Source: Streptomyces sp. NBC_00154
GTDB taxonomy: Bacteria; Actinomycetota; Actinomycetes; Streptomycetales; Streptomycetaceae
DNA length: 64,000 nt
NCBI RefSeq assembly: GCF_026342835.1
Contig: NZ_JAPEMI010000001.1
Location: forward strand, 6,702,501-6,766,500
Direction: 5' to 3'
The translations under genes were made by a program, and so were the position numbers. Of the stretch, positions 35,852-53,019 are shown piece by piece. The first letter of the stretch is position 1. Each line of letters opens with the position of its first letter. The notes under the pieces were generated by a model that was not told the DNA's origin, did not search any database, and worked only from the letters and a program-made list of their open reading frames with translations.

Positions 35852-36298
35852 CTGGCGCTCCTCACGCGATAACAAACCACTGGTGTGGTAAGTATTCGGT
35901 ACAGCGGATGTCCTTCCGAAGCACATTCCGGTCCGGTGACGTGAGGTCTCTTCCTGAGCCGGTATGGATTGTTCCGACACCAAGCGACACCACTCGCGAG
36001 TGCCGTGCTCACCTACGGGGTGTGTGCCCTGAGGAGGCGCGGTCCCGGTCATTCGGCCCTCCGTTCCACTGTGCCCCATCGCGGGGCGCTCTGCATCGGT
36101 GAATTGCTGCACCTCGGTCGCCGTCCCTGCCATCCCCGAGGTGCGAACGGTCTGCGGGGATGGTGGGGAGGAGAATTCAGCTCCGTGCCTTCGGGGTCGT
36201 CGGTGGTCTGCATGGCATGACACCACTCTGTACAGGTGCGCGGAGTGCTCGGTTCGGCCCAAGGGGGATGGCCCGTAACGAGCACATGAAAGGGCCGC
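35852..36298. other. Upstream region of the cysteine hydrolase
   Basis: No supported gene in these 447 bp. The region contains the hydrolase promoter and an inverted repeat at 35876-35889; open frames that cross it lack coding bias. Confidence 0.4.
35876..35889. promoter_or_regulatory. Inverted repeat ACCAC-TGGT-GTGGT, candidate operator
   Basis: The 14-bp site ACCACTGGTGTGGT lies 25 bp upstream of the hydrolase GTG and 10 bp upstream of its ribosome-binding site, in an AT-rich context (AACAA before, AAGTATT after). Its position fits a repressor site overlapping the promoter or transcription start. Confidence 0.35.
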
Positions 36299-36688
36299 GT
36301 GACCGCGGGCGCCCGCCGACTGTTCGATGAACCGATCAGTGAGACCTTGTCGACGACGGCCGGCACGTTTTCACCAGCACCCCCGGCCAGCAGTGGACGC
36401 CCCTCCCCGCACCGCGTCCTCCCGCGGGAGATCACTGCCATCGAGGCCGAACGATGCGGCCCGTACCGCGACGCCTTCGGCCTGTGCACCAACTGCGGAC
36501 TCCGAGGCCGCGTCCAACGCCGCTGCGCCGGCGACGACCCCGCCCGCTCCCGTGAGTCGGTCCGCGCGCCGCACGCCCAGCCCTGGAAGTGGGTGCCCTG
36601 CCCGCACGCCTGCGGATACGTCGGCCAGCCGGAAGTCCGCCCCGACGTCCTGTACGGACTGATCCCGCAGCTCAGCCCGAACCAGTAG
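36299..36688 (+). CDS. Hypothetical Cys-rich protein, possible zinc ribbon
   Basis: The frame shows strong G/C at third positions from about 36420 to the stop. The 129-residue translation contains a cysteine pattern (RCGPYRDAFGLCTNCG, RRCAGDD, then VPCPHACGYVG) that could form a small zinc site. The N-terminal 40 residues are Ser/Ala/Pro-rich and may not belong, so the true start is uncertain. It ends LYGLIPQLSPNQ. A 37-base stretch covering this end recurs at 37739-37775. I do not recognise a function. Confidence 0.5.
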   Translation: MTAGARRLFDEPISETLSTTAGTFSPAPPASSGRPSPHRVLPREITAIEAERCGPYRDAFGLCTNCGLRGRVQRRCAGDDPARSRESVRAPHAQPWKWVPCPHACGYVGQPEVRPDVLYGLIPQLSPNQ

Positions 36689-36850
36689 GCAGGCGGCCGG
36701 GATCACGGACTTCCGAGTTCAGGGGCGCCTCCCACGGTGACGCCATGACCCTCGGATCATGTGACTGCCTTGCGACCCGACTCGGACGTTCGCCCGCGGG
36801 CAATTGCATTCTGGTGCGCCGCACCAGAGCGCCCGATTAGCCTCCCTGTC

Positions 36851-37267
36851 ATGCTCATTGAGATGAATGACACCGTGCGCAGCCTGCTTGACGCCCCGAA
36901 CCCGGCCGTATTGTCCACCCTCAACCCCGACGGCAGCCCGCAGAGTTCGGTGATCTGGGTGAGCCGTGACGGCGGAGAGCTGCTGATCTCCACCGAACAG
37001 GGACGGCGCAAGGAACGGAACATACTCCGCGACCCCCGCGTTGGCCTGACCGTCTTCGACCTCGCCGACCCGCACCTGTACGTCGAGATCCGCGGCACGG
37101 CCACCGTTACTGAGGACGTCGACCGCGCGGTGGCCGTCCACATCACCGAGGAATACCTCAGCCCGGGGGGCGGCAAGGAGTACCTGGAGGCCCCGCCGGA
37201 AGACGTCCGAGTGGTCGTCCGCATCACCCCGACCAAGATCCTCGGTAACGCCACCAAGGCCGCCTAG
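36851..37267 (+). CDS. PPOX-class F420-dependent flavin/deazaflavin protein
   Basis: A 138-residue split-barrel protein of the pyridoxamine-phosphate-oxidase fold, in the group annotated as F420-dependent oxidoreductases in actinobacteria. It opens MLIEMNDTVRSLLDAPNPAV, followed by LSTLNPDGSPQSSVIWVSRD and the characteristic GRRKERNILRDPRVGLTVFD, where the Arg/Lys residues contact the cofactor phosphate. The typical length is 130-145. The ATG at 36851 lacks a clear ribosome-binding site; translation could also start at 36863, behind a GAG, or from a leaderless message. It stands alone, ahead of an IS remnant. Confidence 0.88.
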   Translation: MLIEMNDTVRSLLDAPNPAVLSTLNPDGSPQSSVIWVSRDGGELLISTEQGRRKERNILRDPRVGLTVFDLADPHLYVEIRGTATVTEDVDRAVAVHITEEYLSPGGGKEYLEAPPEDVRVVVRITPTKILGNATKAA

Positions 37268-37282
37268 CTTCTGCCCAGCAAG

Positions 37283-37640
37283 TCATGGGCGAAGCCATAA
37301 GCGGATCGCGGCGGTGGTGACGGTGCCGTGGAAGACATAAGCCCTCTTGTCGTAGCGGGTGGCGACGGCCCGGGAGTTCTTGAGCCGGTTGATCGTCCGG
37401 TCGACCTCGTTGCGGCGTTTGTAGATCACGCTGTCGAAGCCGGTGGATCGGCCGCCCTTGCTGCCACGGCGCTTGCGGTTGGCCCGCTGGTCCTTCGGCT
37501 CGGGGATCGTGTGCTTGATCTGACGCCTTCGCAGGTAGCTGCGGTTGCGGCGTGAGCTGTAGCCTTGTCGCCGCCCAAGTGGTCCGGCCGGGTGCGGGGG
37601 TGGCCGCCCTGCGGGCGGGGACGGTGCAACACCCCGGCGC
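37283..37640 (-). pseudogene. IS5-family transposase C-terminal remnant
   Basis: The minus strand encodes the end of an IS5-type (DDE) transposase: RTRPDHLGGDKA in one frame, then, after loss of one base (GCT-AC instead of GCTTAC near 37553), YSSRRNRSYLRRRQIKHTIP in the next. The latter continues with GGRSTGFDSVIYKRRNEVDR (catalytic Glu region), LKNSRAVATRYDKRAY and ends VTTAAIRLWLRP. The N-terminal two thirds are missing and no terminal repeats are evident. It is a non-functional fragment. Confidence 0.85.
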
Positions 37641-38233
37641 CGCCGAGGCCGCGAGCATGATCCGTATGGACTGCCCGTGCGCGATCCAGGAATCGGCCGC
37701 CGCGGACGACTGGCCGGCAGAGGCCGCTGACCTCATTCGTACGGACTGGCCCCGCAGCTCAGGCCGGACCAGTAGCCTGTGATCAGCGGCCACGAACGGC
37801 CCGCACAGACGGCCAAAGAGGTCCTACCCCAGGCGGGGTCGGGCCTCTTTGCCGCGCAAGGGGCGATGCGCCGGAGACCCCTTTTCCGCCTGCCGCTGAC
37901 CTCGCAGCCCGTCCGCCGGCGGCACAGATGCCCGTCGGCGGGGCCCCATGGGGGTCGGATGGGGGCCGGAGGGACGGGGAAACCCCGTGAACGATCATCG
38001 TGCCCTGAGTACGTCCATGTGTGCTGACCTGCTGAAACGACGAATTCGGGGACGGTCAAGGAAGGACAGGGGCGCGCTCTGGCGAGGTGAGGAAGCATCA
38101 GCGGCGTGAAGAACAGCACCGATTCTATTGGGTGGAGATCCGCACGTACTCCGGCATAGGTTCGTCCGCGATGTGAGCAGCTCACCGCGCACGGGGAGGC
38201 GCGACGGGCTCCGCCTGAACACGGAGAGACGAC
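37641..38233. other. Stretch without a supported gene
   Basis: This 590-bp region lies between the IS5 remnant and a GNAT gene. It holds a degenerate copy (37739-37775) of the end of the Cys-rich gene at 36.6 kb. Around 38098-38172 a short plus-strand frame reads HRFYWVEIRTYSGIGSSAM and stops; it may be the tail of a lost gene, but nothing upstream supports it. Confidence 0.35.
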
Positions 38234-38982: not shown

Positions 38983-39031
38983 TTCGTGCTGCGTCGCGTG
39001 CAATCGTCCCGCCCACCCGTGAGCAGGTACC

Positions 39032-39068
39032 TTGCGCAACCTTTCACACTCACGCAAATTGATTGCGT
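39032..39068. promoter_or_regulatory. TTGCGCAA palindrome and ACGCAA-N5-TTGCGT inverted repeat, candidate operators
   Basis: TTGCGCAA (39032-39039) is a perfect palindrome, and 12 bp further ACGCAAATTGATTGCGT (39052-39068) is a 6-bp inverted repeat made of the same TTGCGY half-site. They sit in the AT-rich promoter region of the glucanase gene. A palindrome with TGCGC/GCGCA arms also precedes the ABC operon at 43738. LacI-type sugar regulators of streptomycetes use sites of this size; the regulator is not encoded in the window. Confidence 0.45.
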
Positions 39069-39332
39069 AATATACAGATCACTTACAGAGCGGCCGGTGT
39101 ACCAGCAAAGGCCTATCTCCAGGTTCAGTTGGCTGAGAATCGCTGCCATCACGTACGCATCTTTCGGTGGTTCGTTCTGTGAGAAGTGTGGACTGGCTCT
39201 CATTCCTCTGCAACTCTCTGACCGCAAAATGCAAAAGTCCCGTCAGGCAGTGCAGAAATGCATGTCACGCACGTTCGCAGACAGAGCCGCGCCCTCGACG
39301 CGCCCTGCGCCGAGGCCGAAGATCGGGGACAT

Positions 39333-42300
39333 ATGAGAACCCAGTGCTGGAGATGGCGGGTCCTTGCCGCCGTGGTCACCACCAGTCTTCTGATGATCGG
39401 CTGGCCGGCGCTCACCGCGTCGGCGGCCGGCGGCCCGAACATCGCCGTCGGCCGACCCGCCGCCGCGAGCAGCGCCAACAGTGAGTACACCGCCCGGAAC
39501 ATCACGGACGGAGACCGGTCGACCTACTGGGAAGGGGCCGGCAGCACCCTGCCCCAGTGGGTGCAGACCGACCTCGGAACCTCCACCCGTATCGACGAGG
39601 TCACGCTGAAACTGCCCGCGGGCTGGGAGAGCCGGCAGCAGACACTCTCGCTCCAGGGAAGCGCCGACGGCGCCAGCTTCTCGACGCTGAAGACCTCCGC
39701 CGCATACACCTTCGCTCCAGGCAGCTCCAACCAGGTGACCATCGCCTTCCCGGCCACCCGGACCCGCTTCGTCCGTGTGGACATCACGGCGAACACGGGC
39801 TGGCGGACCGCGCAGCTCTCCGAGCTGGAGGTCCGTGCGGCGGGGGAGTCGTCGGTCGACCTCGCCGCGGGCCGCACGCTGACGGCGAGCAGCTACACCG
39901 AGACATATGTGGCCGCCAACGCCAACGACGGCAACCCGGCCACCTACTGGGAATCGCGCAACGGCGATCTGCCGCAGTGGATACAGGCCGACCTGGGAGC
40001 CTCGGTGCGTGTGGACCGGGTGGTGCTACGGCTGCCGGACGGCTGGGAGCCCAGGACCCAGACACTGAAGATCCAGGGAAGTACCAACGGCTCGGACTTC
40101 ACCGATCTCACCCCGTCCAGGGACTACGCGTTCGGTCCCACCGGCTGTGAGACGGCGACGGTCTCCTTCGACGCCACGACCACGCGCCACGTACGGGTGC
40201 TGGTCAGCGCCAACACCGGCCGCGCGGCTGCCCAGCTCTCCGAACTGGAGATCTACGGCCCCGGGACCGGCGACAGCGATCCGCCGACCGCGCCCGGGGG
40301 GCTGGCGTACACCGAGCCGGCCTCCGGTCAGATCAAGCTGACCTGGCAGGCGTCGACGGACAACAAGGGCGTCACCGGCTACGACATCTACGCCGACAAC
40401 ACACTTCTGACCAGCGTGGCCGGGGACGTCACCACGTATACCGACACCCGTCCCGCCGATGCCACCGTTGCCTACTTCGTACGGGCCAAGGACGCGGCGG
40501 GCAACGAGTCGGCCAACAGCAACACCGTGACCCGCAGGGCGGACACGGGGGACACGCAGGCGCCCACCGCACCCGCGGGCCTCGCCTTCACCGAGCCGGC
40601 CTCCGGTCAGATCAAGCTGACCTGGCAGGCGTCGACGGACAACAAGGGCGTCACCGGCTACGACATCTACGCCAACAACGTCCTCCGCAGGAGCGTGGCC
40701 GGCGACGTCACCACGTACACGGACACCCAGTCCGCGGGCACCACCGTCTCCTACGTCGTACGGGCCAAGGACGCGGCCGGCAACATGTCCGGCGACAGCA
40801 ACACCGTCACCCGCAACGGCAGTAGCGGATCGGCTTCCAACCTTGCCGTCGGCAAGCCGATCACGGCCTCGTCCGTGGTCCACACGTTCGTCGCCGAGAA
40901 CGCCAACGACAACCAGCTGACGACCTACTGGGAGGGCGCGGGCGGCAGTTACCCGAACACCCTCACCGTGAAGCTGGGAGCCAACGCCGACACCGACAGT
41001 GTCGTGGTCAAGCTCAACCCGGACAGCAGCTGGGGCGCCCGGACCCAGAACATCCAGGTCCTCGGACGTGAGCAGAGCGCCACGTCCTTCACGAGTCTGG
41101 TCGGGGCGAAGGACTACGCGTTCAGCCCCGCGACCGGCAACACGGTGACCATCCCGGTCGATGCCCGGGTCGCCGACGTCCAGCTGAGGTTCACCTCGAA
41201 CACCGGATCCGGTGCCGGCCAGGTCGCGGAGTTCCAGGTCCTGGGCGCCCCGGCTCCCAACCCGGACCTGCAGGTCACCGCGGTCGGCGCCGCTCCTGCC
41301 GCACCGGTCGAGTCGGACGCGATCACTCTGGCCGCGACCGTGCGCAACGGCGGAGCGGTCGCCGCGCCCGCGAGCAGGCTCGAATTCCGGCTGGGCGGCT
41401 CCAAGGTGGCCACCGTGCCGGTGGGCGCACTCGCTGCCGGATCGTCCACCCAGGTCAGTGCGGACATCGGGCCGCGCGACGCGGGCTCGTACGAACTGAG
41501 CGCCGTCGCGGACGCGGCGGGCGAGGTCATCGAGCAGAACGAGACCGACAACACCTTTACGCGTGCGGACGCGCTGGTGGTGAAGCCGGTGTCCAGCTCG
41601 GACCTGTTGGCCACCGCGGTCACCACCTCGCCGTCGGCCCCGGCCGACGGCGACAATGTCATGTTCTCCGTCGCGGTGAAGAACCAGGGCACCGTGGCAT
41701 CCACGAGTGGCAGCCACGCCATCACGCTGAGCCTGATCGACTCCAAGGGCGCCACGGTGAAAACCCTCACCGGTACACACAGCGGAGCCATTGCCGCCGG
41801 TGCGACAACCGCGCCGGTGAACCTGGGCAGTTGGACGGCCGCCAACGGCTCGTACACCGTGAAGGTCGTCCTCGCCGACGACGCCAATGAGCTCCCGGTG
41901 AAGAGGGAGAACAACACCAGCACCGAGTCCCTCTTTGTCGGCCGCGGGGCCAACATGCCGTACGACACGTACGAGGCGGAGGACGGCATCACGGGCGGCG
42001 GCGCCCAGGTCGTCGGCCCGAACAGGACCGTCGGTGACATCGCGGGCGAGGCGTCGGGCCGCAAGGCCGTCACCCTCAACAACACGGGCAACTATGTCGA
42101 GTTCACCACCAGAGCGAGTACCAACACCCTGGTGACGCGGTTCTCCGTCCCGGACTCCGCGGGCGGCGGCGGCATCGACACCGAACTCAATGTGTATGTA
42201 GACGGCACCTTCCTGAAGGCGATCGACCTCACCTCGAAGTACGCGTGGCTGTACGGCGCCGAGACGGGCCCCGGCAACGCGCCGGGATCCGGGGCGCCCC

Positions 42301-43622
42301 GGCACATCTACGACGAGGCGAACATGATGCTGGGAAAGACCGTTCCGGCCGGGAGCAGGATCCGGCTGCAGAAGGACGCGGCCAACACCAGCACCTATGC
42401 GATCGACTTCGTCAGCCTGGAGCAGGTCGCACCGGTCGCCAACCCGGACCCCGCCACATACACCGTCCCCACCGGATTCACCCACCAGGACGTCCAGAAC
42501 GCCCTGGACAAGGTCCGGATTGACACCACCGGACAGCTCGTCGGCGTCTATCTGCCGGCCGGTGAGTACGAGACGTCCAGCAAATTCCAGATCTACGGAA
42601 AGGCAGTGAAGGTCGTCGGAGCGGGGCCCTGGTACACCAGGTTCCATGCCCCGTCCGGGCAGGAGAACACCGATGTCGGATTCCGTGCGGAGGCCAGTGC
42701 GAAGGGTTCGTCGTTCGCGAACTTCGCGTACTTCGGCAATTACACCTCGCGCATCGACGGACCGGGCAAGGTGTTCGACTTCTCGAATGTCTCCGACATC
42801 GTGATCGACAACATCTGGAACGAACACATGGTGTGCCTCTACTGGGGCGCGAACACCGACTCCATCACCATCAAGAACTCCCGCATCCGCAATCTGTTCG
42901 CCGACGGCATCAACATGACCAACGGTTCGACCGACAACCTCGTGACCAACAACGAGGCCCGGGCCACGGGCGACGACAGCTTCGCACTGTTCTCGGCGAT
43001 CGACGCCGGGGGCTCGGACATGAAGAACAACGTCTACGAGAATCTGACCTCGATCCTCACCTGGCGTGCCGCGGGAGTCGCCGTCTACGGCGGCTACGAC
43101 AACACCTTCCGCAATATCCGCATCGCGGACACCCTGGTCTACTCGGGGATCACGGTCAGCTCGCTGGACTTCGGATATCCGATGAATGGATTCGGGACCG
43201 GACCGACCACGATCGAGAATGTGTCAGTCGTCCGTTCCGGCGGCCATTTCTGGGGATCGCAGACCTTCCCCGGGATCTGGCTGTTCTCGGCGTCCAAGGT
43301 GTTCCAGGGCATTCGCATCAACAACGTGGACATCGTCGATCCGACGTACAGCGGCATCATGTTCCAGACCAACTATGTAGGAGGACAGCCCCAGTTCCCG
43401 ATCAAGGACACCGTCCTCAGCGACATCTCGATCTCCGGTGCCCGCAAGAGCGGCGACGTGTACGACGCCAAGTCCGGCTTCGGGCTGTGGGCCAACGAGA
43501 TGCCGGAGGCCGGCCAGGGGCCCGCGGTCGGTGAGGTCACCTTCAACGGCCTGAAGCTGAGCAACAACGCGCAGGACGTGAAGAACACGACCTCCACCTT
43601 CCGGATCAACATCAACCCGTAA
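39333..43622 (+). CDS. Secreted multidomain alpha-1,3-glucanase (GH87 mutanase/mycodextranase type)
   Basis: Exported enzyme of 1,429 residues that should hydrolyse alpha-1,3-glucan. The ATG at 39333 follows GGGGAC; residues 1-32 are the signal peptide. Approximate order: discoidin domains at 33-165 and 170-308, FN3 at 313-400 and 408-492, discoidin at 500-640, CARDB at 645-750 and 752-865, a CBM6/35-like domain at 868-1030 (YEAEDGITGGG), and a right-handed beta-helix at 1033-1429. In the helix, Asp1191 (LFADGINMTNG) and Asp1214-Asp1215 (ATGDDSFALFS) are spaced +23/+24, the same spacing as the catalytic Asp triad reported for Bacillus and Paenibacillus GH87 enzymes. The binding modules would hold insoluble glucan. 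The transporter and alpha-glucosidase downstream fit this role. Confidence 0.9.
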   Translation: MRTQCWRWRVLAAVVTTSLLMIGWPALTASAAGGPNIAVGRPAAASSANSEYTARNITDGDRSTYWEGAGSTLPQWVQTDLGTSTRIDEVTLKLPAGWESRQQTLSLQGSADGASFSTLKTSAAYTFAPGSSNQVTIAFPATRTRFVRVDITANTGWRTAQLSELEVRAAGESSVDLAAGRTLTASSYTETYVAANANDGNPATYWESRNGDLPQWIQADLGASVRVDRVVLRLPDGWEPRTQTLKIQGSTNGSDFTDLTPSRDYAFGPTGCETATVSFDATTTRHVRVLVSANTGRAAAQLSELEIYGPGTGDSDPPTAPGGLAYTEPASGQIKLTWQASTDNKGVTGYDIYADNTLLTSVAGDVTTYTDTRPADATVAYFVRAKDAAGNESANSNTVTRRADTGDTQAPTAPAGLAFTEPASGQIKLTWQASTDNKGVTGYDIYANNVLRRSVAGDVTTYTDTQSAGTTVSYVVRAKDAAGNMSGDSNTVTRNGSSGSASNLAVGKPITASSVVHTFVAENANDNQLTTYWEGAGGSYPNTLTVKLGANADTDSVVVKLNPDSSWGARTQNIQVLGREQSATSFTSLVGAKDYAFSPATGNTVTIPVDARVADVQLRFTSNTGSGAGQVAEFQVLGAPAPNPDLQVTAVGAAPAAPVESDAITLAATVRNGGAVAAPASRLEFRLGGSKVATVPVGALAAGSSTQVSADIGPRDAGSYELSAVADAAGEVIEQNETDNTFTRADALVVKPVSSSDLLATAVTTSPSAPADGDNVMFSVAVKNQGTVASTSGSHAITLSLIDSKGATVKTLTGTHSGAIAAGATTAPVNLGSWTAANGSYTVKVVLADDANELPVKRENNTSTESLFVGRGANMPYDTYEAEDGITGGGAQVVGPNRTVGDIAGEASGRKAVTLNNTGNYVEFTTRASTNTLVTRFSVPDSAGGGGIDTELNVYVDGTFLKAIDLTSKYAWLYGAETGPGNAPGSGAPRHIYDEANMMLGKTVPAGSRIRLQKDAANTSTYAIDFVSLEQVAPVANPDPATYTVPTGFTHQDVQNALDKVRIDTTGQLVGVYLPAGEYETSSKFQIYGKAVKVVGAGPWYTRFHAPSGQENTDVGFRAEASAKGSSFANFAYFGNYTSRIDGPGKVFDFSNVSDIVIDNIWNEHMVCLYWGANTDSITIKNSRIRNLFADGINMTNGSTDNLVTNNEARATGDDSFALFSAIDAGGSDMKNNVYENLTSILTWRAAGVAVYGGYDNTFRNIRIADTLVYSGITVSSLDFGYPMNGFGTGPTTIENVSVVRSGGHFWGSQTFPGIWLFSASKVFQGIRINNVDIVDPTYSGIMFQTNYVGGQPQFPIKDTVLSDISISGARKSGDVYDAKSGFGLWANEMPEAGQGPAVGEVTFNGLKLSNNAQDVKNTTSTFRININP
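40310..40394 (+). repeat. 85-bp direct repeat, first copy (FN3 module 1)
   Basis: These 85 bases are identical to 40589-40673. Both copies encode the same part of consecutive FN3 domains (TEPASGQIKLTWQASTDNKG onward), while the sequences between and after them have diverged. Confidence 0.9.
40589..40673 (+). repeat. 85-bp direct repeat, second copy (FN3 module 2)
   Basis: Identical to 40310-40394. Identity even at synonymous positions, with diverged flanks, suggests recent duplication or gene conversion between the two FN3 modules. Confidence 0.9.
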
Positions 43623-43639
43623 CACGGAACCGCAGGTCA

Positions 43640-43675
43640 GGGACGCCGCCCGGGAGGCTGGGCGGGCGGCGTTCC
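43640..43675 (+). terminator. Terminator of the glucanase gene
   Basis: Arms at 43640-43652 and 43663-43675 pair over 13 bp with one wobble around a 10-base loop, 18 bp after the glucanase stop. The glucanase is therefore probably transcribed separately from the ABC operon. Confidence 0.75.
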
Positions 43676-43737
43676 GGGCCGCACGGAAGCTCCGCCACGC
43701 ACGTCACATGCGTAGCACTGTCAAACTTTTACGAAAA

Positions 43738-43757
43738 CTGCGCGAGATATTGCGCAG
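43738..43757. promoter_or_regulatory. 20-bp palindromic candidate operator of the ABC/GH13 operon
   Basis: CTGCGCGAGATATTGCGCAG is symmetric at eight of its ten base pairs, including the six outermost. It lies 84 bp before the start of the binding-protein gene, just after an AT-rich stretch (CAAACTTTTACGAAAA) that may be promoter. Its right half ATTGCGC resembles the half-sites ahead of the glucanase gene. Confidence 0.5.
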
Positions 43758-43841
43758 GGATGTCAGCGGTGGTTGAGTGTGCCGCGCCCCGGCAGAGAGC
43801 CGGCCGAGGGACTTCCACGCCCATGCCCGAAGGGACCATCG

Positions 43842-45266
43842 ATGAGAAGTGCTGGGTTCCGCAGTCATCGCCGTACACGCCGCACCTCCGCGGCCGCCCT
43901 CGTCACCGCACTCGCCCTGACCGCTCTCGCCTCATGCGGTACGAGCAGCAGCAGCGACAACAACAACGGCGGCGGCTCCGGCGGCTCGTCCGACCCGTCA
44001 GCTCCGCTGGACCCGAAGGCGAAGGTGACCCTCTCGATCGACTGCATGCCGCCGGCCGCGAAGGCCGCGGAACTGCGCGAGTGGAACGAGGACATCAAGA
44101 CGTTCAACAAGAAGTACCCGAACGTCAAGATCAACGGAAAGTCCACCCCGGGTCAGTGCCTGGAGCCGCCGCGCTTCACCGCCATGCTCAAGGCGAAGTC
44201 GCAGCCCGACGTCTTCTACGCGTACTTCACCGACCTCGAACAGGTACTGGACAACGACGGGGCGACCGACATCTCCGCCTACGTCACGGACAAGTCGGTC
44301 CCGGCTCTCAAGGACATCCAGCCGCAAGTCCTCGACGTGGCCCGCAAGGACGGCAAGCTCTACGCCTTGCCGACCAGCAACTACACCATGGGCCTGATGA
44401 TCAACCGGAAACTCTTCACCCAGGCCGGTCTCGACCCGGACACACCACCGGCCACCTGGGAAGAGGTCCGGGCCGCCGCCAAGAAGATCGCGGCACTCGG
44501 CAAGGGCATCGCGGGCTACGGCGAGTACAGCGCGGCCAACACAGGCGGCTGGCACTTCACCGCCACCCAGTACTCCCTCGGCGGGGACGTGGTCGACTCC
44601 ACCGGCAAGAAGGCCGCCTTCAACGACGACACGGGCAAGCAGGTTCTCCAGCAGCTGCACGACATGCGGTGGGAGGACAACAGCATGGGCCAGACCCAGC
44701 TGCTGAAGTGGGGCGATCTGCAGAAGCAGATAGCCAGCGACAAGCTCGGCATGTTCCTTGCCGCGCCCGACGACATCACGTACATGGTCCAGCAGCTCGG
44801 CGCCAAGTACGAGAACTTCGGCATGGGACCGATCCCCGGCGCCAAGGGAACGCTCTTCGGCGGCAACAACTACATGATCAAGAAGGGCAGTTCGCCCGAC
44901 CAGATCAAGGCCGCCGTCGCCTGGCTCAACTTCAAGAACCTCACCCAGGGCAAGGGCCAGTTCGACTGGGCACGCACCAAGGCCGACCAGCTGCCCGTCG
45001 GACTGCCGCAGCCGAACTTCTTCCTGGGCGACACCAAGACGAAGGACGACGCACAACGGGTCGCCAACGCCACGATGCCGGTCGAGAACTTCAAGGCCTT
45101 CATGGACAACCCGGTCACCGGCAAGGCCGAGCCGCCGAAGGCCCAGGAGATCTACAAGATCCTCGACAACGCCATGTCCGGCGTCCTGACCAACAAGAAC
45201 GCAAACATCGACAAGCTGCTCTCCGACGCCGAGAAGCAGGTCAACCAGGTGCTGGCGAACCAGTGA
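43842..45266 (+). CDS. Sugar ABC transporter substrate-binding lipoprotein
   Basis: A 474-residue extracellular binding protein of the MalE/UgpB type. The ATG at 43842 follows GAAGGGACC. The lipoprotein signal has an Arg-rich twin-arginine-like start (SHRRTRRTS) and lipobox LASC with Cys at residue 32, followed by a flexible Ser/Asn/Gly linker. The mature domain shows KVTLSIDCMPPAAKAAELRE, NYTMGLMINRKLFTQAGLDP and PPATWEEVRAAAKKIAALGK, all typical of oligosaccharide-binding proteins. It heads an operon with two permeases and an alpha-glucosidase, so the ligand is probably an alpha-linked gluco-oligosaccharide such as nigero-oligosaccharides released by the glucanase upstream. Confidence 0.9.
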   Translation: MRSAGFRSHRRTRRTSAAALVTALALTALASCGTSSSSDNNNGGGSGGSSDPSAPLDPKAKVTLSIDCMPPAAKAAELREWNEDIKTFNKKYPNVKINGKSTPGQCLEPPRFTAMLKAKSQPDVFYAYFTDLEQVLDNDGATDISAYVTDKSVPALKDIQPQVLDVARKDGKLYALPTSNYTMGLMINRKLFTQAGLDPDTPPATWEEVRAAAKKIAALGKGIAGYGEYSAANTGGWHFTATQYSLGGDVVDSTGKKAAFNDDTGKQVLQQLHDMRWEDNSMGQTQLLKWGDLQKQIASDKLGMFLAAPDDITYMVQQLGAKYENFGMGPIPGAKGTLFGGNNYMIKKGSSPDQIKAAVAWLNFKNLTQGKGQFDWARTKADQLPVGLPQPNFFLGDTKTKDDAQRVANATMPVENFKAFMDNPVTGKAEPPKAQEIYKILDNAMSGVLTNKNANIDKLLSDAEKQVNQVLANQ

Positions 45267-45353
45267 CGGACGCGCGGGGCCGGGTCACGCGAACCCGGCC
45301 CCGCCCCCGCCCGTCCATCCGCGTCTGAAGTACACCGGCACCGAGGAGACACC

Positions 45354-46313
45354 ATGTCGGCCCCCACCCTGTCCACCAGCAAGGCGACCAGGCCACGCCA
45401 CGGACACCCGGGCCCCGCCCGCCCGAACTCCGCCCGCGAGGAGTTCGTACGAGCCGTGCGCCGCAACATCTCGGCGCACGGCTTCCTGATCGGGGCGGTG
45501 CTCTGCTTCTCGTTCTTCTCCTGGTATCCGATGGTCCGGGAATTCATCCTGGCCTTTCAGAAGAACGAGAACGGAAAGACCACCTGGGCCGGCTGGTCCA
45601 ATCTCAGTTACGTCGTCAACGACCCGGCCTTCTGGCAGGCCTGGCGCAACACTCTGCTCTTCACCGGCCTGGCCCTGCTGCTGGGCTTCCTGGTCCCGTT
45701 CGTCGTCGCCGTCGTACTCAACGAATTCCGGCACGGTCAGGGCTACCTGCGGCTACTGGTCTATCTGCCGGTGATGCTGCCACCCGTTGCCTCGGTCCTG
45801 CTCTTCAAGTACTTCTACGACCCCGGCTACGGACTCTTCAACCGCATCCTGGAGGTCTTCCACCTCCCCGCCCAGCAGTGGCTGCAGTCCACGGACACCG
45901 CGATGCTCTCCGTCGTCATCGCGGCCACCTGGATGAACATGGGCGGCGCCACCCTGATCTACCTCGCCGCACTCCAGTCGATCCCCGGCGAACTGTACGA
46001 AGCCGCCGAACTGGACGGCGCGGGACTGCTGCGCAGGGTCTGGCACGTCACCATCCCGCAGACCCGGCTCATCCTCTCGCTGCTCCTGCTGATGCAGATC
46101 ATCGCGACGATGCAGGTCTTCACCGAGCCGTTCCTCCTCACCAACGGTGCGGGCCCCGAAGGTTCCACCACGACCGTCGTCTACCTCATCTACCAGTACG
46201 CCTTCAACTTCAACAACTACGGCAGTGCGGCGGCCCTCGGACTCGTCCTGCTCGTCGTCCTCGCGGGCTTCTCCGCGGTGTACGTACGACTCAGCCGCAG
46301 CAGCGAAGATTAG
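45354..46313 (+). CDS. Sugar ABC transporter permease (MalF type)
   Basis: A 319-residue inner-membrane protein with six helices, starting AHGFLIGAVLCFSFFSWYPM. The cytoplasmic coupling (EAA) motif is EAAELDGAGLLRRVWHVTIP near residue 215. It forms the translocation channel together with the next gene, which starts 13 bp downstream after an AGGAGGGG ribosome-binding site. No ATPase gene accompanies the pair; in streptomycetes the shared ATPase MsiK usually energises such CUT1 systems. Confidence 0.92.
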   Translation: MSAPTLSTSKATRPRHGHPGPARPNSAREEFVRAVRRNISAHGFLIGAVLCFSFFSWYPMVREFILAFQKNENGKTTWAGWSNLSYVVNDPAFWQAWRNTLLFTGLALLLGFLVPFVVAVVLNEFRHGQGYLRLLVYLPVMLPPVASVLLFKYFYDPGYGLFNRILEVFHLPAQQWLQSTDTAMLSVVIAATWMNMGGATLIYLAALQSIPGELYEAAELDGAGLLRRVWHVTIPQTRLILSLLLLMQIIATMQVFTEPFLLTNGAGPEGSTTTVVYLIYQYAFNFNNYGSAAALGLVLLVVLAGFSAVYVRLSRSSED

Positions 46314-46326
46314 GAGGGGCCCGACC

Positions 46327-47277
46327 ATGGCATCGAACGCCTTCGTCTCCCGACGGCGCGTCCCCGGACAGCGCAGGGCCGAACGGCGCGCCGCCGACCT
46401 GGGACGCCAGCGCACCCTGATCTCACCGGCCCAGCTCGCCCGGCCCCGCGGCAGGACCGTCTACTGGATCGTGTTCGGCGTGGTGATCGCCCTGTTCACC
46501 GTGGCCTTCCTCGGGCCGCTCTACTGGATGGTCACCGGCGGACTCAAGACCACCCAGGAAGTCGTGCAGAGCCCGCCGACCGCCTTCCCCACATCGGTCC
46601 ACACGGAGAACTATTCCCGGGCGTGGACGGTGATGGACCTGAGCCGGCTCCTTTTCAACACCCTCTACTACGCGTTCGGCGCGCTCGCTTTCCAGCTGCT
46701 CTTCGACGTCGCCGCCGCCTACTCGCTCTCCAAGCTGCGGCCCGTCTTCGGCAAGGTCATCCTCGGCATGATGCTGGCCACGCTGATGATCCCGGCCACG
46801 GTCCTCGTCGTACCCCAGTACCTCACCGTCCTCGACGTGCCGATCGTGCAGCGCAATCTGCTCAACTCGCCCTGGGCGATCTGGCTGCCGTCCGTCACCA
46901 ACGCCTTCAACATCTTCCTGCTGAAGCGGTTCTTCGACTCGATCCCGCGCGAACTCCTCGACGCAGCCGCGATCGACGGGGCCTCGCCCCTGCGCACCCT
47001 GCGCTCCGTGGTGCTGCCGATCTCCCGGCCGATCCTCGGCGTCGTCTCCATCTTCGCGATCGTCGGCGTCTGGAAGGACTTCCTCTGGCCGATGCTCACC
47101 CTGCCCGACCCCAGCAAGCAGACCCTCAACGTGGGTATCTACTCGCTGGCCAGCGGTGTCCCCGAGAACGTCCTCATCGCGGCACTCACCATCGCGTCCA
47201 TCCCGACGCTGCTCATCTTCCTGCTCTTCCAGCGCAACATCATGAGCGGACTCACCGCGGGCGGCCTCAAGGGCTAG
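46327..47277 (+). CDS. Sugar ABC transporter permease (MalG type)
   Basis: A 316-residue partner permease. The ATG at 46327 follows AGGAGGGGCCCGACC and removes a spurious upstream extension that overlaps the previous gene. Six helices begin with TVYWIVFGVVIALFTVAFLG; the long periplasmic loop after the first helix is typical. The EAA motif is DAAAIDGASPLRTLRSVVLP, and LNVGIYSLASGVPENVLIAA precedes the last helix. It is co-transcribed with the binding protein and first permease. Confidence 0.92.
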   Translation: MASNAFVSRRRVPGQRRAERRAADLGRQRTLISPAQLARPRGRTVYWIVFGVVIALFTVAFLGPLYWMVTGGLKTTQEVVQSPPTAFPTSVHTENYSRAWTVMDLSRLLFNTLYYAFGALAFQLLFDVAAAYSLSKLRPVFGKVILGMMLATLMIPATVLVVPQYLTVLDVPIVQRNLLNSPWAIWLPSVTNAFNIFLLKRFFDSIPRELLDAAAIDGASPLRTLRSVVLPISRPILGVVSIFAIVGVWKDFLWPMLTLPDPSKQTLNVGIYSLASGVPENVLIAALTIASIPTLLIFLLFQRNIMSGLTAGGLKG

Positions 47278-47392
47278 AGCCACCCACTGCAGCAGCCTTC
47301 TCCTTCCCAGCGCTCCGCCGTCGGCTCTCCCATCCAGCGCCCCGCTGTCCGGGGCCGGCGGCGGAGTCCCACCTGCCCGAAAGGAACGCCAC

Positions 47393-49015
47393 GTGGCAGC
47401 CAACCGTCCGTCCCAGCCCACCGTGAACTGGTGGCGCGACGCCGCTATTTACCAGATCTATGTACGCAGCTTCGCCGACGGCGACGGTGACGGCACCGGC
47501 GACCTCGCGGGGGTACGGGCCAAGCTGCCCTACCTCGTCGAACTGGGCGTGGACGCACTCTGGTTCACCCCCTGGTATCTCTCACCGCTCGCCGACGGCG
47601 GATACGACGTGGCCGACTACCGCACCATCGACCCCGCCTTCGGCACCCTCGCCGAGGCTGAGAAGCTGATCGCGGAGGCCCGTGAACTGGGCATCCGTAC
47701 GATCATCGACATTGTCCCCAACCACGTCTCCGACCAGCACGTCTGGTTCCGGGCTGCCCTCGCGGCCGGCCCCGGAAGCCCCGAGCGGGAGCTCTTCCAC
47801 TTCCGGCCCGGACGCGGCGCGGACGGCGAGATTCCGCCCAACGACTGGGTCTCGGAATTCGGCGGCACGCCCTGGACCCGGCTCGACGACGGCGAGTGGT
47901 ACCTGCACCTGTTCGCCACGCAGCAGCCCGACCTCAACTGGGCTCACCCGGCGGTCCGTCAGGAACACGAGGACGTCCTGCGCTTCTGGTTCGAGCGAGG
48001 TGTGGAGGGTGTACGGATCGACTCGGCGGCCCTGCCCGCCAAGGACCCCGCCCTGCCCGACTTCGTCGAGGGCCGCGACCCCCACCCCTACATCGACCGG
48101 GACGAACTGCACGACATCTACCGCTCCTGGCGCGCCATCGCCGACGAGTACGGAGCCATCTTCGTCGGAGAGGTCTGGCTCCCGGACGCCGAGCGGTTCG
48201 CCCGCTATCTGCGCCCCGACGAGCTGCACACCGCCTTCAACTTCAACTTCCTGGCCTGCCCCTGGGACGCCGGACGGCTTCGCTCCGCCATCGACGACAC
48301 GCTCGCCGAGCACGCCGCGGTCGGTGCCCCTGCCACCTGGGTCCTGTGCAACCACGATGTGACCCGGACCGTCACCCGTTACGGACGTGAGGACACCGGT
48401 TTCGACTTCGCGGCGAAGACCTTCGGCACCCCGACGGATCTCGGACTCGGCACCCGGCGGGCGCGTGCCGCGGCGCTGCTCTCGCTGGCCCTGCCGGGCG
48501 CGGCCTACCTCTACCAGGGCGAGGAGCTGGGCCTTCCGGAAGCGGACATCCCCCGCGGCCGGATCCAGGACCCGATGCACTTCCGCTCCGGCGGGACCGA
48601 CCCGGGACGCGACGGATGCCGGGTGCCGCTGCCCTGGTCGGCACAGGAGCGGTACGCCGGTTTCGGATCCACCGTCGAGCCCTGGCTGCCACAACCCGCG
48701 GACTGGGCGACGTACGCCGCCGATCTGCAGCGCGCCGATCCGGACTCGATGCTCAGCCTGTACCGCGCGGCCCTCCGGCTGCGCCGCACCGCGCCCGGCT
48801 TCGGCAGCTCGGGGACAGCGGGGGAGCAGCTGGAGTGGTTGCCGACCGAGCCCGGGGTGCTTGCCTTCACCCGCGGTGACCGGCTGATCTGCATCGTCAA
48901 TCTGACCGAGGAGCCCATCGAACTGCCCGGCCACACCGAGGTCCTGCTCATCAGCGGCCCGCCGGCCGACGGAGGGAGGCTCCCGCAGGACACCGCGGCC
49001 TGGCTACGGGGCTGA
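47393..49015 (+). CDS. GH13 alpha-glucosidase, cytosolic
   Basis: A 540-residue glycosidase of the oligo-1,6-glucosidase/alpha-glucosidase group. The GTG follows GAAAGGAAC, and there is no signal peptide. The GH13 motifs are all visible: DIVPNHVSDQH (region I), GVRIDSAAL with the nucleophile Asp (II), GEVWLPDAE with the acid/base Glu (III) and LCNHDVTRT (IV). The N-terminal WWRDAAIYQIYVRSFADGDG and PYLVELGVDALWFTPWY are standard. The gene closes the transporter operon (115-bp gap), so it probably releases glucose from imported alpha-oligosaccharides. Strict linkage preference (alpha-1,3 versus 1,4 or 1,6) cannot be read off. Confidence 0.92.
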   Translation: MAANRPSQPTVNWWRDAAIYQIYVRSFADGDGDGTGDLAGVRAKLPYLVELGVDALWFTPWYLSPLADGGYDVADYRTIDPAFGTLAEAEKLIAEARELGIRTIIDIVPNHVSDQHVWFRAALAAGPGSPERELFHFRPGRGADGEIPPNDWVSEFGGTPWTRLDDGEWYLHLFATQQPDLNWAHPAVRQEHEDVLRFWFERGVEGVRIDSAALPAKDPALPDFVEGRDPHPYIDRDELHDIYRSWRAIADEYGAIFVGEVWLPDAERFARYLRPDELHTAFNFNFLACPWDAGRLRSAIDDTLAEHAAVGAPATWVLCNHDVTRTVTRYGREDTGFDFAAKTFGTPTDLGLGTRRARAAALLSLALPGAAYLYQGEELGLPEADIPRGRIQDPMHFRSGGTDPGRDGCRVPLPWSAQERYAGFGSTVEPWLPQPADWATYAADLQRADPDSMLSLYRAALRLRRTAPGFGSSGTAGEQLEWLPTEPGVLAFTRGDRLICIVNLTEEPIELPGHTEVLLISGPPADGGRLPQDTAAWLRG

Positions 49016-49479: not shown

Positions 49480-50736
49480 TCACCGCGTCCGTACGCGTAC
49501 CCGCTCCCACACCCACAGCACGAGGCTGCCCGCAGCGAGCGAACCGCCCAGGACACAGATGCCGGTCCAGCCCGCGCGCGACCAGACCACCGAGGCGAGT
49601 GCGGCGCCTGCAGCCCCGCCCAGGAAAAACAGGGTCATGAAGCCGGAGTTGATCCGGTTGCGGGCTTCGGGGCGGAGCGCGTAGATCACGTACTGGCTGC
49701 TGTTCAGCCCCGCCTGCTGGGCCACGTTCAGGGAGATCACGCCGACGGCGAGCCACAGCGGCGAGGACTCGCCCGCCAGGAGCAGGGGCCAGGAGAGCGT
49801 GAGGAGGGCTGCCGACACTCCGGAGACCAGCTGCACGCGGCCGCGGTCGCCGAGCCTGGCCGCGACGTTCATACCCACCACGCCGATGACGCCCAGCAGA
49901 CCGAAGAGCCCGATCGCGGCCGCGTTCCAGCCGAAGGGCGGCCGGGTCAGCAGAAAGGTCAGCGCGGTGAGCTGCACGCTGTACGAGGCCATCGAGAAGG
50001 CCGCGACGGCTGACCGCATGCGCAGCAGGGGCTCCTCGCGCAGCAGCGAGAGGGTGGAGCGCAGCAGTCCGCCGTAGGGCATCGGGATGGCGGCGCCCGC
50101 CCTGGGCAGCCGGGGCAGGTTGCGGTGCAGAAGCACGGCCATGGACGCCATGAGCAGGGCGTTCATCCAGTACGCGGTGCGCCAGCCGCCGAGTTCCGAC
50201 AGCGCGCCGGAGGCCAGTCGGCCGACCAGTCCGCCGAGCAGGACACCGGACATGACGACGCCGACGATCCTGCCGCGTGCGGCCGGAGCCGCGAGGGCCG
50301 CCGCGAACGGCACCACGACCTGGGCGCCGACGGACGTCAGCGCGGTGAGAGCCGTCCCCGCAATCAGCAGGGGGCCGCTGGGGGCTGCGGCCGTCAGCAG
50401 AAGGAAGAGCGCGGTGAGACCGAAGAGGCCCACGGCGAGCCGGCGGCGCTCCAGGACATCCCCGAGCGGCACCAGCAGGATCAGGCCCAGCGCGTACCCG
50501 CCCTGGGCGGCGGTCACGATCAGCCCCGCCGCCGTGACACCGATGTGCAGGTCTGCCTCGATCACGTCGAGCAGCGGCTGGGCGAAGTAGTTGCCCGCGG
50601 CCGAGAGCCCGGCCGCGACGGCCATCAGAGCGGCGAGCCCGCGCCCGAGCCCGAGCACGGGCAGCGGTTTCGGGGCGGTCGTCGGGACGTCGGGGTGCCG
50701 CGTCCCGTGGTGTGACGCGTGTGCGGAATGAGCCAT
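49480..50736 (-). CDS. Major facilitator superfamily exporter
   Basis: A 418-residue transporter with 12 predicted helices, in the drug/sugar-efflux (DHA1) pattern. The N-half has AAGLSAAGNYFAQPLLDVIE and GYALGLILLVPLGDVLERRR, the loop 2-3 motif; the C-half has AIGLFGLLGVIGVVGMNVAA and ARNRINSGFMTLFFLGGAAG. The sequence NYFAQPLLDVI is characteristic of a group of MFS proteins often found divergent from LysR genes, exactly as here. The substrate is unknown. The LysR gene 80 bp away is its probable regulator. Confidence 0.9.
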   Translation of the reverse strand: MAHSAHASHHGTRHPDVPTTAPKPLPVLGLGRGLAALMAVAAGLSAAGNYFAQPLLDVIEADLHIGVTAAGLIVTAAQGGYALGLILLVPLGDVLERRRLAVGLFGLTALFLLLTAAAPSGPLLIAGTALTALTSVGAQVVVPFAAALAAPAARGRIVGVVMSGVLLGGLVGRLASGALSELGGWRTAYWMNALLMASMAVLLHRNLPRLPRAGAAIPMPYGGLLRSTLSLLREEPLLRMRSAVAAFSMASYSVQLTALTFLLTRPPFGWNAAAIGLFGLLGVIGVVGMNVAARLGDRGRVQLVSGVSAALLTLSWPLLLAGESSPLWLAVGVISLNVAQQAGLNSSQYVIYALRPEARNRINSGFMTLFFLGGAAGAALASVVWSRAGWTGICVLGGSLAAGSLVLWVWERVRVRTR

Positions 50737-50779
50737 GTCCCACAGCCTCGGGGTACAGCCACTGATGAGTCCAACACAT

Positions 50780-50800
50780 GTTTTTCATTCGATCGATCGT
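50780..50800. promoter_or_regulatory. Candidate LysR binding region with CGATCGATCG palindrome
   Basis: The 80-bp gap between the divergent MFS and LysR genes contains CGATCGATCG around 50790-50799 within a TTTTTCATTCG context. LysR proteins usually bind dyads with T-N11-A in such shared promoters. The exact site cannot be fixed from one sequence. Confidence 0.3.
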
Positions 50801-50816
50801 GGTTCACGATGGATGG

Positions 50817-51710
50817 ATGGAGCTTCAGCAGATGCGATACGTGGTGGCGGTGGCGGACCTGCGGAACTTCACCCGCGCCGCGAAGAAATGCCTGGTCGTC
50901 CAGTCCGCGCTGAGTCATCAGATCGCGCGTCTGGAGAAGGAGCTTGGGGCCCGGCTGTTCGACCGCACCAGCCGTCATGTCCGGCTCACCGCAGCAGGTG
51001 AGGCGTTCCTGCCCGCGGCCCGCCAGGCCCTGGATGCGGCGGAACGGGCCCGCGCCGCGGCGGCGGCAGCGGCGGGGGAGGTCAGCGGGCGCCTCGCGAT
51101 CGGGGCGATCCCGACGCTCTGCGCGGTCGACATCCCGGCCGCGCTGCGGGAGTTCCACCTCCGCCATCCGAAGGTCCGTATCGACCTCAAGGAGGGGCCG
51201 AGCAAGGATCTGGTCCAGGAAGTGCAGGACGGCACGCTCGATGTCGCCTTCCTCGGTGTGCTGCCGAGCTACCGGCCGAAGGGCGTGAGCGATCACGAAC
51301 TCGCCCGGGGCGAGCTCGCCGCCGTGGTCGCTCCCACCCACCCGCTGGCGCGTGAGGCCGAAGTGGGTCTGGAACGGCTGGCGGCGGAGACGTTCGTCGA
51401 CTACCCGGCAGGCACCGCGGCCCGCGCCCAGTCGGAGGAGGCGTTCGAGGCGTCGGGGCTCACCCGCGTGGTGGCCTTCGAGGTCAGCGGGACCGACTTC
51501 ATCGTCCGGCTCGTGCGCAGCGGACTGGTCGTCGCGCTGCTGCCTGCCGCGTTCGCGGCCGAACTGGCAGGAGTCACCGTGCTGCCGGTGCTCGATGCCC
51601 CGGCCCGGACGGAACGCCTGGTCTGGAGCCGGTTCCGCCCCACCCCCGCGGCCGCGGCGTTCCTGACCGGGCTCGGTATCGATACGGAGGCCGTCGCCGA
51701 CCGGCCGTGA
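50817..51710 (+). CDS. LysR-family transcriptional regulator
   Basis: A 297-residue regulator. The ATG at 50817 begins MELQQMRYVVAVADLRNFTR, the usual LysR opening; 13 upstream in-frame residues are not family-like. The winged helix spans residues 1-60 (SALSHQIARLEKELGARLFD), and the C-terminal effector domain from about 90 follows the pattern LAIGAIPTLCAVDIPAALRE, then LDVAFLGVL. It probably controls the divergent MFS exporter, as LysR regulators typically do. It converges on the sigma-factor gene with only 7 bp between stops. Confidence 0.92.
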   Translation: MELQQMRYVVAVADLRNFTRAAKKCLVVQSALSHQIARLEKELGARLFDRTSRHVRLTAAGEAFLPAARQALDAAERARAAAAAAAGEVSGRLAIGAIPTLCAVDIPAALREFHLRHPKVRIDLKEGPSKDLVQEVQDGTLDVAFLGVLPSYRPKGVSDHELARGELAAVVAPTHPLAREAEVGLERLAAETFVDYPAGTAARAQSEEAFEASGLTRVVAFEVSGTDFIVRLVRSGLVVALLPAAFAAELAGVTVLPVLDAPARTERLVWSRFRPTPAAAAFLTGLGIDTEAVADRP

Positions 51711-51717
51711 CGTCCCC

Positions 51718-53019
51718 TCAGACAGGGGGCAGCGCGCGGCGGCGGCGCCGGAGGAACTCCTGCTCGGCGGCGTTGTCGGTCCGGGCGATGGCGGCGTCGT
51801 ACGCCGATGCCGCCTCGGCACAGCGGCCCAGCCGTCGCAGCAGGTCGGCCCGCACGGCGTGGAACACGTGGTAGCGGTCGAGCCCGAGCTCTTCGACGAG
51901 GACGAGCGCAGCACCCGGTCCGTCGACCTCTGCCACCGCGACGGCACGGTTGAGCGCCACCACCGGAGTCGGCGCCTGCGCCAGCAACTGGTCGTAGAGC
52001 CGCAGGATCTGCCCCCAGTCGGTCGCTGCCGCGGTCGGTGCATCGCCGTGCACCGCGTTGATCGCGGCCTGGATCTGGTACGGGCCGGGCCGGTTCCGGC
52101 GCAGACACCGGCGTACGAGCGCCTGCCCCTCGCCGATCAGCGCACGGTCCCACCGGCTGCGGTCCTGGTCGGCCAGGGACACCGGTGCACCGTCCGGGCC
52201 CGACCTGGCGGTGCGGCGCGCCTCGGTGAGCAGCATGAGGGCGAGCAGGCCCAGCACCTCGGGTTCGTCCGGCATCAGACCGGCCAGCAGCCGGCCGAGA
52301 CGGATGGCCTCCGTGCAGAGGTCCTCGCGTGCGAGACGCTCGCCCGAGCTCGCCGTATGCCCCTCGTTGAAGATCAGGTACACCACGGCGAGCACCGCCC
52401 CTACCCGGTCGGGAAGGTCCGCGTCGGCCGGGACCCGGTAGGGGATCCGGGCGTCACGGATCTTGCCCTTGGCACGCACCAGCCGCTGCGCCATGGTCGG
52501 CTCCGGGACCAGAAACGCGTGCGCGAGCTCCGAGGTGGTCAGCCCGCCCAGCAGCCGCAGGGTCAGCGCGACCTGCGCGGAGACGGAGAGTGCGGGGTGG
52601 CAGCAGGTGAAGATCAGCCGCAGTCGGTCGTCGTGCACGGACCCCTCCTCGGCCGGTTCGTCGCGGGCGTTCAGGGCCTGCGCCGACGTCGCCCGAGCTT
52701 GGCGGTCGGCGCGGGACGCCTCACGGCGCAGCCGGTCGATCGCCCGGTTGCGTGCGGTGGTGATGATCCAGCCGGCCGGGGCGGGCGGCAGCCCGGCGGA
52801 CGGCCACCGCTCCAGCGCGGTGGCGAACGCCTCCTGGACGGCTTCCTCCGCGATGTCGATGTCGCCGAAGGCGCGGACGAGCACGGCGACCGCGCGGCCG
52901 TACTCCTCGCGGAAGAGGCGCTCGATGTGCGCGGTGGGTACGGCCGGTGCGTCGTCGGATGCGTCGTCCGGCGCGCGGGGCACCTCGGCGGCGCCGGGCG
53001 GCCCCGGTGCGTCGGGCAT
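51718..53019 (-). CDS. ECF42-type RNA polymerase sigma factor with C-terminal extension
   Basis: A 433-residue sigma factor, about twice the usual ECF length. Region 2 is at about 28-100 ([40 protein letters not shown]), region 4 at about 150-205 ([20 protein letters not shown]). The remaining 220 residues are the DUF6596/TPR-like extension ([37 protein letters not shown]) that defines the ECF42 group. Such sigma factors lack an anti-sigma partner; their targets are genes for DGPF/YCII proteins. Its ATG overlaps the stop of exactly such a gene (TGATG), giving translational coupling. A promoter sequence of the expected type precedes the pair. Confidence 0.92.

Follow-up and report, generated by a model that had tools for sequence, protein, structure and literature searches.

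Alpha-1,3-glucan is a polymer of fungal walls and dental plaque, and is also made by bacteria (mutan). The nearest published description of a system for its breakdown and uptake is the nigerose cluster of Lachnoclostridium phytofermentans, in which, according to PMC9061262, a GH87 gene lies near the genes for a GH65 nigerose phosphorylase, a GH31_u1 enzyme, an ATP-binding cassette (ABC) transporter and LacI regulators. For actinomycetes, no description of the uptake of alpha-1,3-glucan breakdown products was found in the accessible open-licence PMC literature. Streptomycetes have been isolated on mutan and alternan, with carbohydrate-active enzyme counts in the genome section of the report (PMC11475409); in the main text of that paper, the word "transporter" does not occur. 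Here we describe a locus of five genes at positions 39333-49015 of a 64,000-nt stretch (the window) of the 10.39-Mb genome of Streptomyces sp. NBC_00154. We consider it likely that this locus is an alpha-1,3-glucan catabolic cassette, made up of a secreted GH87 enzyme, a dedicated importer and a GH13 glucosidase under LacI regulation.

The Lachnoclostridium cluster resembles the locus in the pairing of GH87 with an ABC transporter, with LacI regulators nearby; however, nigero-oligosaccharides are handled there by GH65 and GH31 enzymes, as described in PMC9061262, whereas a GH13 enzyme stands in that place here. The cmm cluster of Arthrobacter globiformis, for cyclic maltosyl-maltose (CMM), likewise comprises an importer of one binding and two membrane proteins and a GH13 alpha-glucosidase (PMC7676653), and its binding protein (7bvt) is the solved structure closest in sequence to ours, although the two are only 22% identical on structural alignment. 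The cmm cluster also includes cmmA and cmmF, both GH13 (an extracellular maltosyltransferase and a CMM hydrolase). The window locus lacks counterparts of these, having GH87 instead and one GH13 gene among its five. In Streptomyces, agl3EFGXYZ encodes a putative sugar ABC importer that is repressed by the GntR-type Agl3R and by GlnR, as stated in PMC10704036; compared by description, agl3 has GntR-type regulation, whereas in loci of the present type a LacI regulator is linked in relatives. No GntR match was found among the part of the window neighbours that was scanned.

All five genes lie on the plus strand and each is free of in-frame stops. The first (39333-43622) encodes a GH87 alpha-1,3-glucanase of 1,429 aa, assigned by Pfam (CatAgl_D1/D2), by phmmer against 6k0m and by its catalytic Asp residues, with a signal peptide recognised by eye. 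The second (43842-45266) encodes a CUT1-type solute-binding lipoprotein of 474 aa, assigned by SBP_bac_1, by a structure model and by the lipobox LTALASC, also recognised by eye; the longest open reading frame (ORF) of this region (43760-45328) is in the wrong frame, and the gene lies in the frame of 43773-45266, its start being taken as the ATG at 43842. Two ABC permeases with BPD_transp_1 matches follow, one MalF-like (45354-46313, 319 aa) and one MalG-like (46327-47277, 316 aa, starting at 46327 and not at 46147), so that one binding protein stands with two permeases, as in a CUT1 importer. The last gene (47393-49015, GTG start) encodes a GH13 alpha-glucosidase candidate of 540 aa with an Alpha-amylase domain and no signal peptide visible by eye. 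This order, with binding protein, permeases and GH13 behind GH87 on one strand, is as given in a preliminary description of the locus, and Pfam matches and intact reading frames bear it out. That description had also called the locus complete. Synteny supports this for the core of enzyme, importer and glucosidase, but not for the whole system, since a MalK/MsiK-type transport ATPase gene is absent from the five cassette genes (three OB_MalK matches occur elsewhere in the genome) and the LacI regulator is encoded about 5.7 Mb away.

The main evidence for the cassette comes from synteny. Among 150 congeneric genomes, the GH87 catalytic unit was found in 70 and the binding protein in 88 (both at E <= 1e-60). 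Around 100 of the 101 binding-protein matches, about 9 kb on each side was compared with three GH87 queries, each of another lineage; some of these stretches end at contig ends, and related genomes among them are not independent samples. GH87 was present within 9 kb in 75 of the 100 loci, and about 0.3 per 100 stretches would be expected by chance (about 0.003 per 19-kb stretch, from 49 GH87 copies in 37 congeneric genomes). The linkage was found in 29 of 34 loci with close binding proteins, in 45 of 60 with intermediate ones (about 42-51% identity) and in one of six in the lowest class, which are distant or truncated; the single positive locus there has a truncated binding-protein gene with 49% identity. 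One further distant locus, the 101st, gave no GH87 match with the window query, the only one used there. A named set of loci (n = 76), which overlaps with the above, includes 64 with GH87. Since so many relatives keep the same gene set together, the cassette is probably a dedicated feeding route. Furthermore, the linked GH87 genes belong to three lineages and four arrangements: in the 75 loci, some of which have more than one GH87, the gene is upstream on the same strand in 28, downstream of GH13 on the same strand in 36, divergent upstream in 10 and between the permeases and GH13 in 7. One inherited block would hardly show four arrangements around the module, and we read them as a sign that the pairing itself is under selection, with the reservation that the genomes are related. 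In strain WAC08241 (locus L202), the GH87, binding-protein, permease and GH13 frames are all fragmented, owing either to decay or to sequencing error. GH13 homologues (E <= 1e-120) are present in 149 of the 150 genomes, which is uninformative by itself.

A locus of Streptomyces thermodiastaticus JCM 4840 (L210) ties the cassette to established biochemistry, because its GH87 matches Agl-ST (7c7d), aligning over 597 residues with two differences visible. Agl-ST is a crystallised GH87 enzyme and an established alpha-1,3-glucanase, as cited in PMC10696023 and PMC11475409. The gene order in JCM 4840 is lacI, binding protein, two permeases, GH13 and GH87; judged from this match, the same kind of module adjoins an enzyme of established activity. 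The two loci differ in that the Agl-ST gene is directly downstream of the module whereas the window GH87 is upstream. Agl-ST (ORF of 764 codons) is about half as long as the window enzyme, has one F5/8 type C domain and belongs to another GH87 lineage, and the JCM 4840 binding protein is only 46% identical to that of the window.

For the GH87 enzyme itself, the catalytic unit (41952-43571) consists of CatAgl_D1 (41952-42428, 265 bits) and the beta-helix CatAgl_D2 (42486-43571, 363 bits), both far above the Pfam cut-offs of 27. A pectinase-type or other beta-helix identity for the C-terminal part was considered and rejected: the generic Beta_helix profile gave only 21.6 bits, below its cut-off of 25.9, and this hidden Markov model check, which the preliminary description had proposed, upheld GH87. 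The full protein scored 433 bits against Agl-FH1 of Paenibacillus glycanilyticus (6k0m), which has the same two-domain unit and three catalytic Asp residues but comes from a different phylum. The spacing of one Asp and an Asp-Asp pair (0/+23/+24) noticed earlier coincides with the three Asp-to-Ala positions of the Agl-FH1 mutant chains: Asp1191, Asp1214 and Asp1215 (1216/1239/1240 in a longer ORF) correspond to Asp in 6k0m and to Ala in 6k0p, 6k0q and 6k0s. The catalytic unit alone scored 416 bits to Agl-FH1, 179 to Agl-KA (5zru) and 140 to Agl-ST (7c7d). The enzyme names attached to these PDB codes follow in part PMC10696023 and PMC11475409 and in part general background. In front of the catalytic unit there are three F5/8 type C domains (39459-39824, 39876-40259 and 40833-41237), supported by Pfam and PDB-chain matches, with two FN3-like repeats (40263-40820) between the second and third; this whole binding and spacer region spans 39459-41237, its inner boundaries being approximate. 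The fn3 profile scored barely above its cut-off, and the repeat is clear in the translation. Two CARDB repeats, presumed spacers, follow (41259-41927, PF07705 in two stretches, the boundary of the second approximate). The count of eight binding or spacer modules made previously is matched, except that the eighth, CatAgl_D1, is part of the catalytic unit. A second, shorter GH87 of about 800 aa and of another lineage (L005, G000:C2:493400-494848) is encoded in the same genome, far from the window.

The GH13 protein has an Alpha-amylase domain (PF00128, 332 bits), and its nearest solved relative is the alpha-glucosidase 8yif/8yie (533 bits). In an alignment of 26 sequences, D210, E260 and D322 are invariant, and from general knowledge of GH13 we take them to be the Asp/Glu/Asp triad. 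The region II motif of the window enzyme is GVRIDSAALPAKD, and IDSAA is common to close GH13 enzymes: after the nucleophile Asp, SAA or SAV occurs in 81 of the 82 GH13 proteins above 800 bits drawn from the genus, the remaining one being unmatched by the pattern, and in all 70 of those in the named, overlapping locus set. The corresponding motif is GFRVDVAHGLVKA in the maltose-type paralogue of the same genome and GFRIDVAHGHFKD in 8yif. In GH13 glucosidases, the residue after the nucleophile is known to influence linkage preference. A changed linkage specificity of the window enzyme is plausible, and by its motif it may cut alpha-1,3 linkages. A structure model of this protein had a mean predicted local distance difference test score (pLDDT) of 67.9, and the fold search covered the binding protein. 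The maltose-type paralogue lies in a locus (L216, G000:C2:4870000-4889500) that is paralogous to the cassette, with permeases, a GH13 of the VAH type, a GacH-like binding protein and two LacI genes. Against GacH, which binds acarbose and maltose, the binding protein of this locus scored 585 bits, and against a maltose-binding protein from Streptomyces 356 bits.

The model of the window binding protein (pLDDT 85) matched many sugar-binding proteins with Z of about 30 or more, many of them for alpha-gluco-oligosaccharides; among the matches were 7bvt (cyclic maltosyl-maltose), 5f7v (cycloalternan), 8art (maltose) and 5yse (beta-glucans). According to this model, the fold gives the class of the binding protein and not the ligand, since the structural neighbours, like 7bvt, are known with other sugars. 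The window protein may prefer nigero-oligosaccharides.

Regulation by a LacI-family protein is suggested by relatives of the locus and by a palindrome that they share. Of the 100 genus stretches, 79 contain a LacI gene of one shared type (>250 bits; 26 of the 34 close and 52 of the 60 intermediate loci), mostly beside the binding-protein gene, and one such gene had a LacI Pfam match. No LacI match was found within 9 kb of the window binding-protein gene, and the gene is also absent from the stretches L036 and L038-L041, which encode binding proteins with 85-89% identity to that of the window; an orthologue, 85% identical, is located at 1.01 Mb in the same genome (G000:C2:1010176-1011201), the position about 5.7 Mb from the cassette mentioned above. 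Upstream of the window GH87 there is a palindromic operator-like site, CGCAA-ATTGA-TTGCG (39053-39067, no strand assigned), which is the sole exact match in the window. The pattern CGCAA-N5-TTGCG occurs at 10 places in the genome, among them this site and the lacI orthologue start. In 1.86 Mb of loci, the half-sites occurred 38 times with a spacer of 5 and 0 to 5 times with each of the spacers 2, 3, 4, 6, 7 and 8, and of these 38 palindromes, 24 coincide with the start of a lacI gene and 11 with that of a GH87 gene, the other 3 being unassigned. A second operator-like site, CGCGAGATATTGCG (43741-43754, no strand assigned), a variant of the palindrome, lies upstream of the binding-protein gene; the variant class YGYGANATNTTGCG occurs upstream of 58 of the 100 binding-protein genes and 66 times in total in the same loci, counting both strands. 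A 16-base pattern for the binding-protein site was discarded as a regulon predictor (51 occurrences genome-wide vs 33 for the backward control, on two strands with up to two mismatches). The plain count of TTGCG upstream of GH87, although above that of whole loci, was not relied on, as the background is mostly coding.

The gap between the GH87 and binding-protein genes is 219 bp and includes a 30-nt inverted repeat (43643-43672, plus strand) that by fold energy forms a terminator-like hairpin, with no T run; the segment 43620-43690 folds at -40 kcal/mol (z = -3.82). From the strong hairpin in this gap and the separate operator-like sites ahead of GH87 and of the importer genes, two transcription units controlled by a single LacI-type regulator are probable.

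Together, these results suggest the following pathway, of which the order of steps is inferred. The F5/8 type C modules may hold the secreted GH87 endo-enzyme on the insoluble polymer, and the enzyme would release nigerose and short nigero-oligosaccharides. These would be caught by the lipoprotein, imported by the two permeases with the power of a shared MalK/MsiK-type ATPase encoded elsewhere, and split to glucose inside the cell by the GH13 enzyme, if its alpha-1,3 activity is as supposed. The LacI-family repressor, encoded elsewhere, would bind the palindromes before GH87 and the importer until an oligosaccharide releases it, this direction being the presumed one. At the level of sequence comparison, synteny and the link to Agl-ST give good support to the view that alpha-1,3-glucan breakdown is coupled to an importer of its own and to a glucosidase in the cytosol; they support in part the earlier reading of the locus as glucan utilisation through transporter and glucosidase, in which alpha-1,3 cleavage by GH13 and the ligand are the inferred parts. 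More tentatively, and with our own opinion close to evenly divided, we propose an actinomycete alpha-1,3-glucan regulon, in which a LacI protein reads CGCAA-N5-TTGCG, the importer takes up nigero-oligosaccharides, an IDSAA-type GH13 with evolved alpha-1,3-glucosidase activity replaces the GH31/GH65 enzymes of other bacteria, and lineages that lost GH87 use the oligosaccharides of their neighbours. The cassette is real and well conserved; its logic is ordinary and its combination is new. The view that a transport route for nigero-oligosaccharides is little described in Streptomyces agrees with the accessible open-licence PMC literature, where no such cassette was found. If the cassette reading is correct, it provides a defined importer, enzyme and operator for work on the use of fungal walls or mutan as food by soil bacteria. 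It would also supply a candidate alpha-1,3-glucosidase of family GH13, as well as strains from nature that have or lack the gene for cutting the polymer and are suited to cross-feeding questions.

Several observations weigh against a dedicated cassette. GH87 is missing from 25 of the 100 genus loci, of which 5 have distant homologues, 3 end at contig ends and 17 are clear misses. The nearest binding proteins, those of strains JH14 (L204, 97%) and NBC_01669 (L135, 92%), have no GH87 at the same site: both loci match the window on both sides and miss about 38990-43665, while L137 has GH87 at this site. In the genome assemblies, whose completeness is not stated, PF22816 gave no match for either NBC_01669 or S. 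wuyuanensis, both of which retain the importer, and one weaker match, of another lineage, for JH14. An importer kept by NBC_01669 in the absence of any GH87 match must be of use by itself: such strains either take up oligosaccharides that other organisms set free, or have an importer that serves more broadly. Conversely, eight GH87 loci of the same order (family f3, L217-L224) have no importer or GH13 in the stretch. The closest PDB binding protein (7bvt) and the structural neighbours, as noted, bind other sugars as well. Of the 7 loci in which GH87 separates the permeases from GH13, 5 have a GH13 with the VAH motif and 2 a GH13 in which no motif was matched, which weakens a simple one-to-one motif rule. 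Genome-wide, the palindrome occurs at 10 places vs 19 for its backward control, and the operator patterns were derived from these same loci, whose counts are not an independent test; the weight of the palindrome rests on placement and not on counts. Outside the genus, the binding protein was found (E <= 1e-50) in 51 of 296 genomes of the class, and we analysed 20 loci: the full set of 10 at 43-51% identity, and 10 at 34-37% identity out of 46 weaker matches. The former speak for the cassette, as 8 of 10 have GH87 (in pieces in L262; one of the two without it, L264, ends at a contig end) and all 10 have LacI homologues above 470 bits. In the latter, such LacI homologues are present in 7 of 10 and GH87 in only 3 of 10. 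With the looser linkage in this latter group and the exceptions to the motif fully counted, our confidence in both the cassette and the regulon is slightly lowered.

One alternative that accommodates some of these observations is that the importer and GH13 form a general alpha-glucoside system (for maltose, isomaltose, trehalose or alternan oligosaccharides), to which GH87 is merely a frequent neighbour. The importer kept in genomes without any GH87 match would then be expected, as would the range of sugars bound by the structural matches, which include cycloalternan and cyclic maltosyl-maltose; in addition, a strain of S. poriferorum carries the locus, and other strains assigned to this species were isolated on alternan (PMC11475409). 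However, mere neighbourhood does not agree well with linkage to three GH87 lineages in four arrangements, nor with the sharing of one palindrome between the starts of GH87 and of lacI. The distinct maltose-type locus in the same genome, with its GacH-like binding protein and VAH-type GH13, also appears to count for a role of the cassette's own. We regard a general system as rather unlikely.

It is also conceivable that the GH87 is mycodextranase-like and acts on mixed alpha-1,3/1,4-glucan (nigeran), the importer and GH13 handling oligosaccharides of the nigerosyl-maltose type. Because GH87 also contains mycodextranases (PMC10696023 and PMC11475409), membership in the family does not fix the exact polymer; actinomycete mycodextranases cluster in a published tree (PMC10696023), and an enzyme of this kind from Streptomyces sp. 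J-13-3 is cited in PMC11475409. The window enzyme is, however, much closer to Agl-FH1 than to the other two solved GH87 enzymes (416 bits vs 179 and 140, in a comparison with no mycodextranase sequence). On this evidence alpha-1,3-glucan is favoured over other polymers, and a mycodextranase seems improbable. Still less probable, and in our judgment very much so, is that the locus is chiefly a weapon by which GH87 weakens living fungal walls and feeding is secondary: fungal walls contain alpha-1,3-glucan, and treatment of live Aspergillus oryzae mycelia with a GH87 enzyme led to loss of staining with an alpha-1,3-glucan probe (PMC10696023), but the tight linkage to an importer, a glucosidase and a sugar-type regulator points to nutrition. 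The mycoparasitic role raised in the preliminary description is neither favoured nor disfavoured by these results, and we retain the reading as a feeding cassette for alpha-1,3-glucan.

Some further observations concern the relatives and the surroundings of the locus. The L217-L224 family encodes long GH87 enzymes of the window lineage, often with several more GH87 copies per genome. In the JH14 locus, a subtilase-family gene (7630-8811) precedes the binding-protein gene. Among 10 genes from 8 loci (six without GH87 and two with GH87 but no importer), a small sample covering part of the neighbours, no other polysaccharide-degrading enzyme was found. The window stretch of about 33630-38090, which includes an isochorismatase-family gene (35204-36262), is absent from the corresponding position in L204, L135 and L137, although both flanks match; this stretch may be an insertion in the window strain. 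Downstream of the cassette (49480-53019) are genes for a major facilitator superfamily transporter, a LysR regulator on the opposite strand and a DUF6596-containing sigma factor.

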